DNA of 64,000 bases from Vibrio hippocampi (GTDB lineage Bacteria; Pseudomonadota; Gammaproteobacteria; Enterobacterales; Vibrionaceae). The notes under the pieces are model-generated. The model worked only from the letters and a program-made list of their open reading frames with translations, was not told the DNA's origin and ran no database searches. Both the position numbers and the translations under genes were made by a program. The stretch is from positions 1,116,001 through 1,180,000 of the forward strand of contig NZ_CAKLCM010000003.1 of the NCBI RefSeq assembly GCF_921292975.1, written 5' to 3'. Below are positions 499-28,353 of this stretch, one piece after another; within the stretch, counting starts at the first letter, position 1, and each line of letters begins with the position of its first letter.

Positions 499-587
499 AA
501 TTCAAATCCGTGAATCCGGGTCGTCCCGGCTAATCCTTGAGCTTTGGCAGGGTCGTCCCTAGCTCATATTGAATGCAACGGGTTGGA

Positions 588-1988: not shown

Positions 1989-2777
1989 TTAAGCTATTTT
2001 CTTTTGCAGTGATTCTGGAACCAGTTCGGGTGTATTGGCTTTATTGATATCAATATCAAAGGTGACCTGCGCACCAAAGCGTTCCGGAGCCTGAATATCT
2101 TGTCTCACATGATCAAATACCCAGAGTCGGTTTCCTAAATGGAAGCCTTCGCTCAAATCATGGGTGATCATAAACACGGTCAGATTCTCTTGTTCCCACA
2201 GTTGATGAATCAGTTGATGCATATCTTTTCGGATACCGGGATCCAGTGCGCCGAAAGGTTCATCCAGCAACAAGATGCGAGGTTTTTTAATTAAGGATTG
2301 AGCAATAGAAAGACGCTGACGCATACCACCAGAAAGCTCATGGGGATATTTATCCAACGACGCCTCTAAGCCCACCTGTTCAAGCATGGCCATCGCTTGC
2401 TGCTTGGCTTGCGCCTTTTGTTGCCCAAATTGACGCCCAACCAATAATGAAGTGACGCCCCCTTGTTCAAACTCAAGCCCTAACATCACGTTGTCTAACA
2501 CCGTCAAATGCGGAAATACCGAGTACTTTTGAAACACGATGCCACGCTCCACGCTCGGTTCATTACTCAGCGGCGCACCATCGAGTAAAATCTCACCTCG
2601 GGACGGGCTTTCCGTTCCTAACATCATATTTAAAAAGGTGGTTTTTCCACAGCCGGAAGCACCGACGATGCTTACAAAATCCCCTTCATTTACCGTGAGG
2701 TTCAACTTTTCCAGTACGATATTGTCACCGTACTCTTTCCAAAGATGTTTGATCTCGATAATGGGTTGGCTAGCCAT
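1989..2777 (-). CDS. ABC transporter ATP-binding protein (nitrate/taurine type), putative guanidine uptake
   Basis: A 262-residue ATPase of the SsuB/TauB/NrtD group. Walker A is GASGCGKT (residues 39-46), the signature LSGGM is at 148-152, and Walker B is ILLLDEP at 168-174. It would power uptake through the membrane protein encoded just upstream. The ATG at 2777 is preferred to the one at 2783 because GGAG lies 6 nt ahead of it; it overlaps the permease stop by 8 nt, a coupling arrangement. The substrate is inferred from the riboswitch and neighbouring carboxylase genes. Related clusters have been annotated as urea or nitrate transporters. Confidence 0.9.
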   Translation of the reverse strand: MASQPIIEIKHLWKEYGDNIVLEKLNLTVNEGDFVSIVGASGCGKTTFLNMMLGTESPSRGEILLDGAPLSNEPSVERGIVFQKYSVFPHLTVLDNVMLGLEFEQGGVTSLLVGRQFGQQKAQAKQQAMAMLEQVGLEASLDKYPHELSGGMRQRLSIAQSLIKKPRILLLDEPFGALDPGIRKDMHQLIHQLWEQENLTVFMITHDLSEGFHLGNRLWVFDHVRQDIQAPERFGAQVTFDIDINKANTPELVPESLQKKIA

Positions 2778-3600
2778 TGGCATCTCCTTTTTCTTGGTGA
2801 TACCAAGGGCTCACCTTATGTGAGAGTTTTTTAAGTAACCAATCCATGCTGTATGCCAGTATCGTGATCCACAAAACATAAGGCAGAATCACATCCATTG
2901 ACATATAACGACGAACCAGAAAGATGCGATAGCCTAATCCTTCGGTCGCCACAATCGCCTCGGCTGCAATAAGAAACAGCCAAGCACTACCCAAGGTCAA
3001 ACGCACCGCTTCAATCAGTCTTGGGAAGATTTGCGGTAAAATGACGCGCACGATGATCTGCCAGCTATTACCGCCTAAGGTCTGCGCCTTAATTAGCTGT
3101 TCATCGGGAAGACTTTGTACCCGCAATTGAATATCGCGAATAATGATCGGGCAGATGCCAATCACGATTAACACCACTTTCGACAATTCGCCCAGACCAA
3201 AGGTAATAAACAGAATCGGCAGAATCGCCATCGGTGGGATCAGTGACACTGCCGTCACCACCGGAGAGAGTGACGAACGAACCACAGGAATGATCCCCGT
3301 CGCCACACCAACTGCAAGCCCCGCGAAGGCACTCACCGCCACTCCCATGACGAGACGCGATAAGCTTGCTAACGTGTCGATCCACATCAGATACTCACCT
3401 GTTCTTTTGCTGGGTGTGAAAGCCATACGGTCGATGGCATCCACAAAGCTAGAGAAAGCAGGCAGTAATTTATCTGCAGGATTCGCCGCCAATCGGGCAT
3501 CTGACGCTGTGACATACAGCGCCAAAATGATTAGAAACGGCAACAGACCTAGCATTAATCGTCCATAGCTAGAGGGATGACGATTGATCACTTTTGTCAT
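2770..3600 (-). CDS. ABC transporter permease (nitrate/taurine type), putative guanidine uptake
   Basis: A 276-residue inner-membrane permease with about six hydrophobic segments, starting near residues 15-31 (LMLGLLPFLIILALYV). The binding-protein-dependent permease loop is visible as EQLIKAQTLGGNSWQIIVRV, where it contacts the ATPase. The family is that of SsuC/TauC/NrtB. The ATG at 3600 follows CTGGAG. It sits 19 nt after the periplasmic binding protein gene and overlaps the ATPase start, so all three transport genes form one translational unit. The substrate is assigned only by context. Confidence 0.9.
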   Translation of the reverse strand: MTKVINRHPSSYGRLMLGLLPFLIILALYVTASDARLAANPADKLLPAFSSFVDAIDRMAFTPSKRTGEYLMWIDTLASLSRLVMGVAVSAFAGLAVGVATGIIPVVRSSLSPVVTAVSLIPPMAILPILFITFGLGELSKVVLIVIGICPIIIRDIQLRVQSLPDEQLIKAQTLGGNSWQIIVRVILPQIFPRLIEAVRLTLGSAWLFLIAAEAIVATEGLGYRIFLVRRYMSMDVILPYVLWITILAYSMDWLLKKLSHKVSPWYHQEKGDANG

Positions 3601-3619: not shown

Positions 3620-4696
3620 TTAGAGCTTATCGTCAGCGGCCATCGCCATATATTCTGCCGAGAATCTCAGCTTCACATTGTTAGGATCACCCAGAATACC
3701 GGTCGGCGTTTCGATGCCAATGAAGCCCGCATCTGGTGCACCATCGCCTAACAAACCATGCTCAAACGAGAACTCACTCACTTTTTGCATAGTTCCGGCC
3801 AGCTTTGAGCTTGTGGTAAAAGACACCGCTTCACTTGGACTGTAGAACATATTGGTCGCGGCTAATTGCGCCTTATACCCTGGAAGGTCTGTTCCTGAGG
3901 CTTGCGCCATATAGCTTTTCGCTTTATCACCATCGCTTTCAGACTGCATGATAGCCATGATTTCATACCATGCACCTGTTAACGCCTTACCCAGTTTTGG
4001 ATTGTCGTTTAGGGTGTCGGTATTGACCACCAGTAAATCAATGATTTCGCCGGGAATATCAGCGGAAGAGAACACCAGTGAGGTGTCAGGTTGAGTGGTG
4101 ATTTCGCTTAGCAATGGGTTCCATGTCACGACCGATGTGACATCTTTGGTAGAGAATGCAGCCACAAGATCCGCGTCAGAGGTGTTGACCACTTTGACAT
4201 CGCGCTCAGACATGCCGACGCTCTGTAAACCGCGCGCCATCAGATAGTGAGACACACTTAGCTCGACCAGATTGACGGATTGACCTTTAATATCAGCCAG
4301 TCCTTTGTTGCCTTTCAACACAATACCGTCGTTACCGTTTGAGAAGTCACCGACAATAAGCGCGGTGGAATCTATGCCGCTGGCCGCTGGAATCGTCAAC
4401 GCATCCATATTGGTCATAACGGTGGCATCAAATTGACCCGTAGTATATTGGTTAATCGACTCGATATAGTCATTCACTTGCACAATATCGATTTCAATCC
4501 CGTATTTATCCGCCCACTTATCAACCACGCCAGAATAGTCGGCATAGTCCCACGGCATCCAGCCGACATAGATTGACCATGCTAGAGTAAAGCTTTGCTT
4601 TTCTTCGGCGATGGCAGCGGTTGAGACAAGTGATGAAGACGCAAGACCCAGCGTTGCCGCCAGCGTAATTAAGCGTTTTTTGATGGAATGTTTCAT
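3620..4696 (-). CDS. ABC transporter periplasmic substrate-binding protein, putative guanidine binding
   Basis: A 358-residue secreted protein. It has a clear Sec signal (MKHSIKKRLITLAATLGLAS, cleavage probably after AIA) followed by SFTLAWSIYVGWMPWDYAD, the N-terminal pattern of NMT1/TauA-like binding proteins. It is the first gene of the operon. The frame is open to 4843, but the ATG at 4694-4696 carries GAGGAGG a few bases upstream, and the longer version would run into the riboswitch aptamer. Expression is probably set by that riboswitch and a nitrogen-type promoter. Guanidine as ligand is an inference. Confidence 0.88.
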   Translation of the reverse strand: MKHSIKKRLITLAATLGLASSSLVSTAAIAEEKQSFTLAWSIYVGWMPWDYADYSGVVDKWADKYGIEIDIVQVNDYIESINQYTTGQFDATVMTNMDALTIPAASGIDSTALIVGDFSNGNDGIVLKGNKGLADIKGQSVNLVELSVSHYLMARGLQSVGMSERDVKVVNTSDADLVAAFSTKDVTSVVTWNPLLSEITTQPDTSLVFSSADIPGEIIDLLVVNTDTLNDNPKLGKALTGAWYEIMAIMQSESDGDKAKSYMAQASGTDLPGYKAQLAATNMFYSPSEAVSFTTSSKLAGTMQKVSEFSFEHGLLGDGAPDAGFIGIETPTGILGDPNNVKLRFSAEYMAMAADDKL

Positions 4697-4763
4697 GGAA
4701 TAACCTCCTCCTTGGGTCACGGAAATAATTTGCACAAGAGACATAACCAAACATGTTTGGCTG

Positions 4764-4876
4764 GCCTCCCGGGCTTTTATCCCTCCGTGTGACCTCTGGC
4801 GAGGTTGACAACTCTCGGACCAGACACTTTGACGACAAACCATTTGTCACTGCACAAAGTCGGAACCCTAGATGTC
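4764..4876 (-). ncRNA. Guanidine-I (ykkC) riboswitch aptamer
   Basis: On the reverse strand the leader of the transport/carboxylase operon shows the three conserved blocks of the ykkC class in order: CTAGGGTTCCG (4861-4871), TGGTCCGAGAG (about 4823-4833) and ACACGGAGGGATAAAAGCCC with CGGGAGG (4766-4790). These are hallmark segments of the guanidine-I aptamer that binds free guanidinium and turns genes on. The aptamer ends about 68 nt before the ATG of the binding protein gene. A perfect palindrome (4748-4761) lies between them but has no following T tract, so the expression mechanism cannot be told from sequence. Exact boundaries are approximate. Confidence 0.9.
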
Positions 4877-4948
4877 TATTTTTAGCAATTTTTCTGGGTG
4901 TGGCTAACACACCTAGTTATGCTCGTACGCAAAAACTCTCTTAACTGA

Positions 4949-4964
4949 TACAAACTGTGTGCCA
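4949..4964 (-). promoter_or_regulatory. Sigma-54-like promoter of the guanidine operon
   Basis: The reverse strand reads TGGCACACAGTTTGTA, matching the -24/-12 consensus TGGCACRNNNNTTGCW everywhere except T for C in the -12 element. Start of transcription would be near 4938, giving about 62 nt before the riboswitch. An NtrC-like palindrome lies at the expected enhancer distance. Sigma-54 control fits a nitrogen-scavenging operon. The -12 mismatch keeps confidence moderate. Confidence 0.6.
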
Positions 4965-5026
4965 AACATTACAATCATTACAAATCAGATACTTACATCA
5001 TGAACTCTTCACGCAGCAGTCAAAGC

Positions 5027-5043
5027 TTCACCAATTTGGTGCG
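5027..5043. promoter_or_regulatory. NtrC-like operator
   Basis: The 17-bp palindrome TTCACCAATTTGGTGCG matches the NtrC consensus TGCACCANNNTGGTGCA at 12 of 14 fixed positions. Its centre is about 97 bp upstream of the start predicted for the sigma-54-like promoter, a usual enhancer distance. A half-site-like TTCACCA repeats at 5049-5055. The role is inferred from sequence match and position. Confidence 0.55.
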
Positions 5044-5129
5044 TATTATTCACCAAAACGAAGGCACTAAAGTGAAGAAAGCAGAAAATGACAATGGAGA
5101 AAAGCGCCAAAATTGCTAACCAGTTGAAA

Positions 5130-5564
5130 TCACTCGCTCACTTTGCGCGGTTTTAACTCCACCACATTACCTTCTGGATCTTCGATATAGACAGAGCGAC
5201 CAAACCCTTGTGCTCCATAGCGTTCGGCGAAATCATTGACTTCAATGTGTTGGCTTTTAAGGTAAAGCTTCATCTCTGCCTCATCAAATGCGGCGATCTG
5301 CAAACAAAAATGATCGAGGTTACGACCATCTTGACTCGGTGCTTTACCGCCCAGTTTGCCCAACTCACTCTCGACCGTCACCAGATCAATAATTGCCTCT
5401 CCCGCCCGCAGTTGAGTCAGTCCCAACTCCGGCAGTTCTCGCTCGATTGGGCAGCCTAATACATCACAATAAAAACGGAGCATGGCGTTTAAATTTTGAG
5501 TTCTCAGTACCAGATGATCCAGAGACTTCACTTGAATAGGGTTCACAACTTGATCTGAGGACAT
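5130..5564 (-). CDS. VOC (glyoxalase/dioxygenase fold) family protein
   Basis: A 144-residue vicinal-oxygen-chelate protein with two beta-alpha-beta modules. Candidate metal ligands are the His in SLDHLVLRT near the start, the His in NLDHFCLQI mid-protein and the Glu in VVELKPR near the end. Proteins of this size include glyoxalase-like lyases and virulence-associated VOC proteins; the substrate cannot be told. The ATG at 5564 has AAGGTG upstream and is chosen over a GTG nine bases earlier. It is transcribed divergently from the hybrid kinase and lies upstream of the guanidine operon with its own frame, so it is probably not part of it. Confidence 0.8.
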
Positions 5565-5591
5565 AATCGGCACCTTATAATAAAAAAATCA

Positions 5592-25693: not shown

Positions 25694-27151
25694 ATGGCAG
25701 TGACAATCTTACTGATCGAAGACTCAAACTCTTTGGCGGTACTGTATAAGCAATTTTTAAAAGATGAACCATACAATATTATCCATGCGGAAACGGGTGC
25801 CGAGGCGATACGCACGCTAGAGCGAACCACCCCCGCCCTGGTTATTCTCGATCTACAACTGCCTGATATGCAAGGCGACGAGATTCTGTCTTGGATGGAA
25901 AACAAGAGTCTGGATATTCCAGTGATTGTCGCCACCGCTCACGGTAGCGTTGATATCGCAGTCAACATGATTCAAAAGGGCGCAAAAGACTTCTTAGAAA
26001 AACCGATTCGTTCCAGTCGATTAAAAACCTCTGTCGCTATTCATCTTAAGCAAGCCAAACTGGAAACCATGCTCACCAACATCAAGGAGAAGCTGGACAG
26101 AGATCGATTTCATGACTTTATTGGTGCCAGTATTCCGATGCAAAACATCTATAAGGTGATCGATTCCGTTGCCTCGACCACCGCCAGTGTGTTTATTGTC
26201 GGCGAGAGCGGCACTGGTAAAGAGGTCTGTGCCAACGCCATTCATAAAGAGAGCAATCGCCACGATAAGCCGTTTATCGCCATCAACTGCGGCGCGATCC
26301 CCAAAGATCTGATGGAGAGTGAAATTTTTGGTCACACCAAAGGGGCTTTTACCGGTGCGACCCTCGACCGCAAAGGCGCCGCGTCAATGGCCGACGGTGG
26401 CACACTGTTTTTAGATGAATTGTGCGAAATGGAGCTAGAAATGCAGAAAAAGTTACTGCGATTTTTGCAAACTGGCACCTTTAGCCCGCTAGGCAGTAGC
26501 AAAGAACACAAGGTCGATGTGCGTATCATTTGTGCTACCAATAGAGACCCGTTACAAGAAGTGGAACAAGGTCGGTTCCGTGAAGATCTCTATTACCGCG
26601 TGCATGTTGTGCCATTGAATATGCCGCCATTGCGAGATCGTGATGAGGATATTATCACCTTGGCTCAACACTTCTTGCGTCTCTACGCCAAGCAAGATAA
26701 CCGTAAGTTTGAATCCATTAGCCAAGATGCCCAACGCTTCCTTAAACGCTATCGCTGGCCCGGCAACGTTAGGCAGTTGCAGAATGTTATCCGCAGCATC
26801 GTGGTATTGAACGATGAAAAATCCCTCGGTGTGCAACATCTGCCCAATGAGATCAAAGTCAAAACAAGCCCAGCAAAATCATCGGGACCTACGCACAGTA
26901 TTGAGCTTGAAACGCCTCAGCTATCAATTGAAACCTCTGCCTATGTGACTGCCAACACAGCAGCACCAATGCCGACCAATTCTGCTCAGCCAATCCGTCC
27001 AATGTGGCAAATAGAGCGCGATGCGATACAGCAAGCGATTGATCATTGCGACGGTAATGTGCTGAATGCCGCGATGCTGTTGGAGTTGAGTCCATCCACC
27101 ATCTATCGCAAGAAGCAAGCATGGGAAGCCGAGGAAAACGCCTTTGAGTAA
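25694..27151 (+). CDS. sypG: SypG, sigma-54-dependent response regulator of the syp locus
   Basis: A 485-residue NtrC-type activator. The receiver has phospho-acceptor Asp53 (VILDLQLP), the AAA+ domain has Walker A GESGTGKE (170-177) and the sigma-54 contact loop GAFTGA (217-222), and the C-terminal Fis-type helix-turn-helix reads NVLNAAMLLELSPSTIYRKK. It would activate the sigma-54 promoters found before sypA, sypI, sypM and sypP. In V. fischeri its kinase is SypF with RscS; no sypF is present here, so the cognate kinase is unlinked. The ATG follows AAGGTGGA. Confidence 0.93.
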   Translation: MAVTILLIEDSNSLAVLYKQFLKDEPYNIIHAETGAEAIRTLERTTPALVILDLQLPDMQGDEILSWMENKSLDIPVIVATAHGSVDIAVNMIQKGAKDFLEKPIRSSRLKTSVAIHLKQAKLETMLTNIKEKLDRDRFHDFIGASIPMQNIYKVIDSVASTTASVFIVGESGTGKEVCANAIHKESNRHDKPFIAINCGAIPKDLMESEIFGHTKGAFTGATLDRKGAASMADGGTLFLDELCEMELEMQKKLLRFLQTGTFSPLGSSKEHKVDVRIICATNRDPLQEVEQGRFREDLYYRVHVVPLNMPPLRDRDEDIITLAQHFLRLYAKQDNRKFESISQDAQRFLKRYRWPGNVRQLQNVIRSIVVLNDEKSLGVQHLPNEIKVKTSPAKSSGPTHSIELETPQLSIETSAYVTANTAAPMPTNSAQPIRPMWQIERDAIQQAIDHCDGNVLNAAMLLELSPSTIYRKKQAWEAEENAFE

Positions 27152-28337: not shown

Positions 28338-28353
28338 TGGCACCACTATTGCT
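28338..28353 (+). promoter_or_regulatory. Sigma-54 promoter of sypI
   Basis: TGGCACCACTATTGCT matches the sigma-54 consensus at every position except the weak purine at position 7. The start is expected near 28364, 34 nt before the sypI ATG. Confidence 0.88.

Follow-up and report, generated by a model that had tools for sequence, protein, structure and literature searches.

Among the closest described systems, the guanidine operon of Vreelandella boliviensis shares with the locus analysed here a guanidine-I riboswitch at its start, a guanidine-II riboswitch before the carboxylase gene, and transporter and Cgd genes, and it contains the extra genes mgdH and mgdL (PMC12508155). Guanidinium binding has been demonstrated for its guanidine-I RNA, the apparent guanidine KDs of the guanidine-I and guanidine-II riboswitches are 44 and 93 µM, and the operon is strongly induced on guanidine, while sigma-54, NtrC and rpoN go unnamed in the passages of that paper that were found (PMC12508155). 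In nitrogen-limited B. cenocepacia H111, mutating ntrC leads to loss of the transcripts of a cluster that looks like the same operon (I35_7283-7286): after 1 h at 0.3 mM ammonium, the 'urea carboxylase' of the mutant was down by log2 6.0, and zero reads were obtained for a 'urea carboxylase-related' periplasmic protein and an 'aminomethyltransferase' (PMC5491218). The authors interpret the cluster as urea use; the genes are called urea genes, and the words 'guanidine' and 'riboswitch' are absent from the text (PMC5491218). Predicted sigma-54 regulons of alpha-, beta- and gammaproteobacteria hold 102 COG3665 genes, 59% of them named urea carboxylase, in a survey that is an in-silico prediction only and whose text has no word beginning with guanidi (PMC12316311). 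As for a guanidine-I operon of Ectopseudomonas, a LysR-type regulator, and not NtrC, has been suggested (PMC13296017).

Here we analyse a stretch of 64,000 nucleotides from Vibrio hippocampi (contig NZ_CAKLCM010000003.1, positions 1,116,001 to 1,180,000; hereafter the window), and we think it likely that it holds a two-key control region, in which an NtrC/sigma-54 promoter and guanidine riboswitches together govern the use of guanidine as a nitrogen source.

Genes of the operon

All genes of the operon lie on the minus strand of the window. The first one encodes a substrate-binding protein of an ABC transporter (3620-4696, 358 aa; 'putative urea' family TIGR03427, 552.7 bits against a cut-off of 333.9) and is followed by the permease gene (2770-3600, 276 aa), whose best match is of the TauC type and below cut-off, and by the ATPase gene (1989-2783, 264 aa), which matches ATPase families, each of those listed below its cut-off. 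Two DUF1989 proteins (PF09347) come next: UAAP1 (1237-1977; TIGR03425, 326.5 bits), of the carboxyguanidine hydrolase subunit type, and UAAP2 (588-1328; TIGR03424, 332.3 bits). The mechanical reading frame of UAAP2 overlaps that of UAAP1, and its true start is probably downstream of the mechanical one, because the family model begins at residue 46. At the edge of the window stands the 5' part of a biotin carboxylase gene (1-498; TIGR02712, 1848.3 bits, annotated type urea carboxylase), which runs off the window, encodes 1199 aa in the genome and is followed, outside the window, by an allophanate hydrolase gene.

Asp705 of the carboxylase aligns with Asn1330 of the urea amidolyase of K. lactis, a residue that we take to be the substrate-selecting position. 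Aspartate at the substrate-selecting position characterizes guanidine carboxylases and asparagine urea carboxylases (PMC12186494). The Vibrio enzyme is probably a guanidine carboxylase and, given Asp705 together with the gene content, the operon very probably serves guanidine assimilation.

Elsewhere, on the plus strand of the window, a response-regulator-type sigma-54 activator is encoded (25694-27151; 404 bits with the ntrC model, below cut-off). It is flanked by a polysaccharide-export-like gene on one side and by glycosyltransferase-like genes on the other, and about 1.2 kb after it lies an exact TGGCAY-N5-TTGCW site (28338-28353, plus strand).

Anatomy of the leader

Read 5' to 3' on the minus strand, the control region consists of a palindrome (5027-5043), a sigma-54 element (4949-4964), a guanidine-I aptamer (4764-4882), the Shine-Dalgarno sequence AAGGAGGAGG (4713-4704) and the first gene. 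The preliminary description of this DNA had proposed a guanidine-I leader, to be checked with the Rfam covariance model, behind a sigma-54-like element and an NtrC-like palindrome at enhancer distance, and each of these parts was recovered. Run on the whole window, cmscan places RF00442 at 4882-4764 of the minus strand with 83.8 bits against a gathering score of 63 (E 1.8e-13, model positions 1-107, complete), so that the guanidine-I (ykkC) blocks belong to a true riboswitch; the promoter element lies exactly at 4949-4964 with one mismatch and is conserved in relatives, and the palindrome exactly at 5027-5043, 79 bp before the TGG, is conserved in Vibrionaceae. The aptamer is the single match of RF00442 in a search of the whole genome, and it is predicted from the covariance-model match to bind guanidinium. 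Two relatives, L031 and L063, have guanidine-I aptamers with a long insertion, their Rfam matches measuring 181 and 175 nt as compared with the usual length of about 100-120.

The promoter element TGGCACACAGTTTGTA has the correct GG-N10-G spacing, and its sole mismatch to TGGCAC-N5-TTGCW is in the GC of the -12 element, which reads GT. If it lies as far from the -12 element as is customary, the transcription start would be expected at 4938-4940. The genome encodes rpoN, and both the element and its conservation in relatives predict a sigma-54-dependent promoter for the operon. No sigma-70-type promoter passes a scan of 4600-5200, and a promoter of that type was accordingly rejected as the promoter of the operon.

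Within the operon, a guanidine-II (mini-ykkC) riboswitch precedes the carboxylase gene (516-564, minus strand), its match to RF01068 being marginal (32.6 bits against 32). The twin GGACGR hairpin words of this riboswitch were found in 60 of the 81 loci read, the window's own counted and some of the loci ending before that place.

Conservation of the sigma-54 site

Relatives were drawn from 80 named loci found via the first gene, from 26 Vibrionaceae loci (the window included) out of 247 genomes searched, and from a further sample of class-wide, phylum-wide and plasmid examples. Leaders from genomes of the window's genus group match those of named species, Vibrio maerlii and V. albus among them. 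Guanidine-I leaders were located by letter patterns, with Rfam run on the window, L220-L223, L031, L032, L039, L053, L063 and L070; the Vibrionaceae loci and part of the further sample came from Rfam searches, and L032, L039, L053 and L070 had no guanidine-I by letter pattern. The 165 loci yielded 169 leaders, and 148 of them were kept after leaving out 20 near-duplicates (at least 85% identical over the last 180 nt) and one leader with a short upstream region; 127 precede a homologue of the first gene with at least 50% identity (Pseudomonadota). Sigma-54 sites were scored up to 200 nt upstream, with GG and G as fixed letters.

A site with at most two mismatches occurs in 119 of these 127 non-redundant leaders and one with at most one mismatch in 95 (18 exact sites, 77 with one mismatch and 24 with two). 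Sites with zero, one and two mismatches were found in 0.04, 0.54 and 3.7% of shuffled leaders (cumulatively 0.6% up to one mismatch and 4.3% up to two), in 0.02, 0.63 and 2.4% of 4140 random windows from the same loci (0.65% and 3.0%), and in 0, 1 and 5 of the 127 leaders on the opposite strand (6/127 in total); together, these three controls rule out a chance origin of the site. It is present in 66 of the 72 named loci and in 53 of the 55 remaining ones, and the eight leaders devoid of it are L022, L024, L030, L031, L035, L052, L116 and L129. Leaders of Pseudomonas argentinensis (L058), Thauera (L061) and Caballeronia do have it. The distance from the TGG to the CTAGGG of the aptamer has a median of 83 bp and falls within 30-150 bp in 116 of the 119 cases, which places the aptamer inside the expected transcript. 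Among the 21 other kept leaders, which comprise agmatinase-like genes, second aptamers, remoter transporters and others, 19 have the site; guanidine-I leaders without it are L134, before an amino-acid-permease-like gene, and L179, before an agmatinase-like gene. The pairing of sigma-54 and guanidine-I is found repeatedly in gammaproteobacteria, and also in those examples from beta- and alphaproteobacteria that were read, and a feature confined to Vibrio was therefore rejected for sigma-54.

In L050 and L054, a second guanidine-I riboswitch lies inside the operon, before the permease gene, with its own one-mismatch sigma-54 site. The first-gene leaders of L032 and L053 hold partial aptamer words only, with guanidine-I below the Rfam gathering score, and retain a one-mismatch sigma-54 site and guanidine-II; perhaps the first switch has decayed there. 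As the site is kept where the aptamer is below threshold, the promoter goes with the operon and not with the aptamer.

Of six guanidine-II loci whose next gene encodes a small membrane protein, taken by eye for an SMR exporter, none has a sigma-54 site with two mismatches or fewer. This exporter contrast is small, one of the loci has 73 nt upstream, and riboswitch classes are mixed in the comparison. The letter pattern missed the guanidine-II loci L184, L193 and L195, and none of the loci read could be recognised as a guanidine-I/SMR example. Guanidine-II also stands before a membrane-protein gene in L187 and L192, the former with a one-mismatch sigma-54 site upstream.

The NtrC-like site

The candidate enhancer CGCACCAAATTGGTGAA (17 bp, minus strand) agrees with 12 of the 14 fixed positions of TGCACCAnnnTGGTGCA, the NtrC consensus of E. 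coli (PMC8743547), and starts 79 bp before the TGG of the -24 element. The pattern is not rare by itself, being found with at most two mismatches at 27 places of the 4.59-Mb genome, against 11 for the reversed pattern; the argument therefore rests on the distance to the promoter and on conservation. In a count over 115 of the 127 leaders, 30 have a site with at most three mismatches to TGCACCAnnnTGGTGCA whose start lies 78-83 or 98-104 bp ahead of the TGG, while twelve overlapping control bands, placed from -200 to -111 and each made up of the same 13 offsets, gave 0 to 4 leaders each; the mean mismatch reaches its minimum at -80 and -101, positions separated by two turns of the helix. If four mismatches are allowed at -83 to -78 or -104 to -98, 24 of the 25 leaders from Vibrionaceae have the site, nine control bands giving 0-1 of 25; outside this family it appears in 23 of 90 (0-9 of 90 in the control bands) and is absent from the other 67. 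On these counts the NtrC site stands out clearly in Vibrionaceae and can be recognised only in part elsewhere.

The Vibrio genome encodes ntrC (788 bits) and ten other proteins that match the ntrC model strongly (E 1e-124 to 1e-54). We read 21 of the 27 genomic sites, the one of the guanidine operon lying outside these 21. In four of them a sigma-54 site with no or one mismatch follows 60-160 bp downstream, as compared with 2.7% of 6000 random positions, and these four pairs precede PII (79 bp), amtB (122 bp), an amino-acid ABC binding protein (122 bp) and glnA (129 bp). The names PII, amtB and ABC are family matches and glnA was named from its translation alone; the pieces of amtB and the ABC gene, truncated at the end of the sequence that was read, score below cut-off, and the PII piece is above one cut-off and under another. 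The spacing at the PII promoter equals that of the guanidine operon, and NtrC would be the activator acting at 5027-5043.

Two plasmids, from Caballeronia NK8 and M1242 of the same bacterial family as B. cenocepacia, share the gene order of the Vibrio operon. Both carry guanidine-I and guanidine-II, and their sigma-54 sites have one mismatch in NK8 and two in M1242. NtrC-like sites are seen in NK8 at -102, with three mismatches, and in M1242 only one, at -101, with five.

Proposed action of guanidine on the RNA

Guanidine-I is usually a terminator-type ON switch (review, PMC12186494). In the window leader a hairpin that borrows the last GGGAG of the aptamer can form; no U-tract was seen after the post-aptamer hairpin, and terminator prediction on the operon strand of the leader found none. 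The Enterobacterales relatives L068 and L073 do have a U-tract. Just upstream of the Shine-Dalgarno sequence, the word CCGTGACC (4715-4722, minus strand) is complementary to GGTCACACGG of the aptamer (region 4785-4796) and could be a switching strand. Among relatives, the 58 leaders with GGTTAC have GTAAC in 18 cases and GTGAC in 3, and the 32 leaders with GGTCAC have GTAAC in none and GTGAC in 15, kinship not being accounted for in either set; shuffling would give 2.7 and 1.6 for the matched letters, and in many leaders both words are missing. The signal is clearer here than in an energy comparison with swapped partners, which is weak (63/103, p 0.006). The matched letters suggest that CCGTGACC may be a switching strand.

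Discussion

The architecture of this control region, that is its elements, their order, their spacing and their conservation, has good support. On the two-key reading that we favour, when nitrogen is limiting, phosphorylated NtrC sitting at 5027-5043 would activate the sigma-54 RNA polymerase at 4949-4964, and the RNA would start near 4939, some 57 nt ahead of the guanidine-I aptamer. Binding of guanidine to this aptamer would then permit expression of the transporter and of the UAAP/Cgd proteins, the guanidine step acting on termination, on the ribosome-binding site or on both, and expression of the carboxylase would be further gated by the second switch, guanidine-II, at 516-564. From this anatomy we infer AND logic, and an AND gate seems to us the best reading of it. 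The gate may leak, because B. cenocepacia expressed the cluster and no guanidine was reported as added, and strict AND logic has moderate support. Other points weigh against the two-key reading: the -12 element of the window has GT in place of GC, the NtrC-like site is lacking in 67 of 90 leaders from other families, and the Vibrio leader shows no terminator with a U-tract.

The same observation bears on the view that there is no AND gate and that NtrC sets most of the expression, the riboswitch merely tuning it, which we regard as rather unlikely. Wild-type B. cenocepacia expressed its cluster after a nitrogen downshift, with no guanidine reported as added (PMC5491218), and the Vibrio leader has no clear terminator, both of which would fit tuning; against it, most of the operon proteins of V. 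boliviensis were detected only when guanidine or methylguanidine was the nitrogen source, in a comparison made with ammonium, so that the nitrogen status differed too (PMC12508155).

Other explanations concern the promoter itself. The operon might be transcribed from a sigma-54-dependent promoter that a different enhancer-binding protein activates, or that answers to NtrC in some lineages only: the ten further ntrC-model matches of the genome have the sigma-54 activator part, and outside Vibrionaceae a recognisable NtrC-like site was found in only 23 of 90 leaders. We hold this to be improbable, given that 24 of the 25 Vibrionaceae leaders carry the site at fixed distances, that PII in the same genome shares the 79-bp spacing, and that the B. 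cenocepacia data come from an ntrC mutant (PMC5491218). It is highly improbable, in our opinion, that transcription comes mainly from a sigma-70-type promoter or from readthrough, with the sigma-54 site accessory or due to chance. The upstream glyoxalase-family gene (5130-5567) is co-directional and no terminator is predicted between the two on that strand, which speaks for this reading; the scan of 4600-5200 is nevertheless devoid of a sigma-70-type site, and the sigma-54 site is conserved far above shuffled leaders and random windows.

Returning to the two-key control, it is tempting to extend it to the Pseudomonadota as a whole, which we do tentatively, rating this broader picture at somewhat less than even chances. 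A sigma-54 nitrogen gate, depending on NtrC at least in Vibrionaceae, would stand in series with guanidine-I and guanidine-II, the riboswitch replacing a guanidine-sensing activator protein; exporters would keep an RNA switch without the nitrogen promoter, and in Vibrio the first switch would work via the conserved strand before the Shine-Dalgarno sequence and not via a terminator. If true, this would account for the way in which bacteria tell guanidine the nutrient from guanidine the toxin: for the assimilation genes, one and the same RNA sensor is coupled to the system that reports nitrogen shortage. It would also offer a natural two-input gate.

The two halves of this control are already in print separately, namely the riboswitch pair and the sigma-54 control of 'urea carboxylase' genes. 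The preliminary description knew of no report of the combination for Vibrio: no paper joining guanidine riboswitches to NtrC, rpoN or sigma-54 control was found among the matches listed from the open literature (main texts), in line with that statement, whereas the restriction to Vibrio did not hold, since the pairing is not specific to this genus. Likewise, joint control by ykkC and NtcA was not met with in the passages of matching open-literature papers. Our comparison suggests a guanidine role for some of the genes entered as 'urea carboxylase' in NtrC and sigma-54 regulons. With respect to the NtrC/sigma-54 control of the glnA type in E. coli, the likeness lies in the enhancer palindrome placed upstream of a -24/-12 promoter, and the difference in the transcript, which in Vibrio additionally carries a ligand-binding aptamer.
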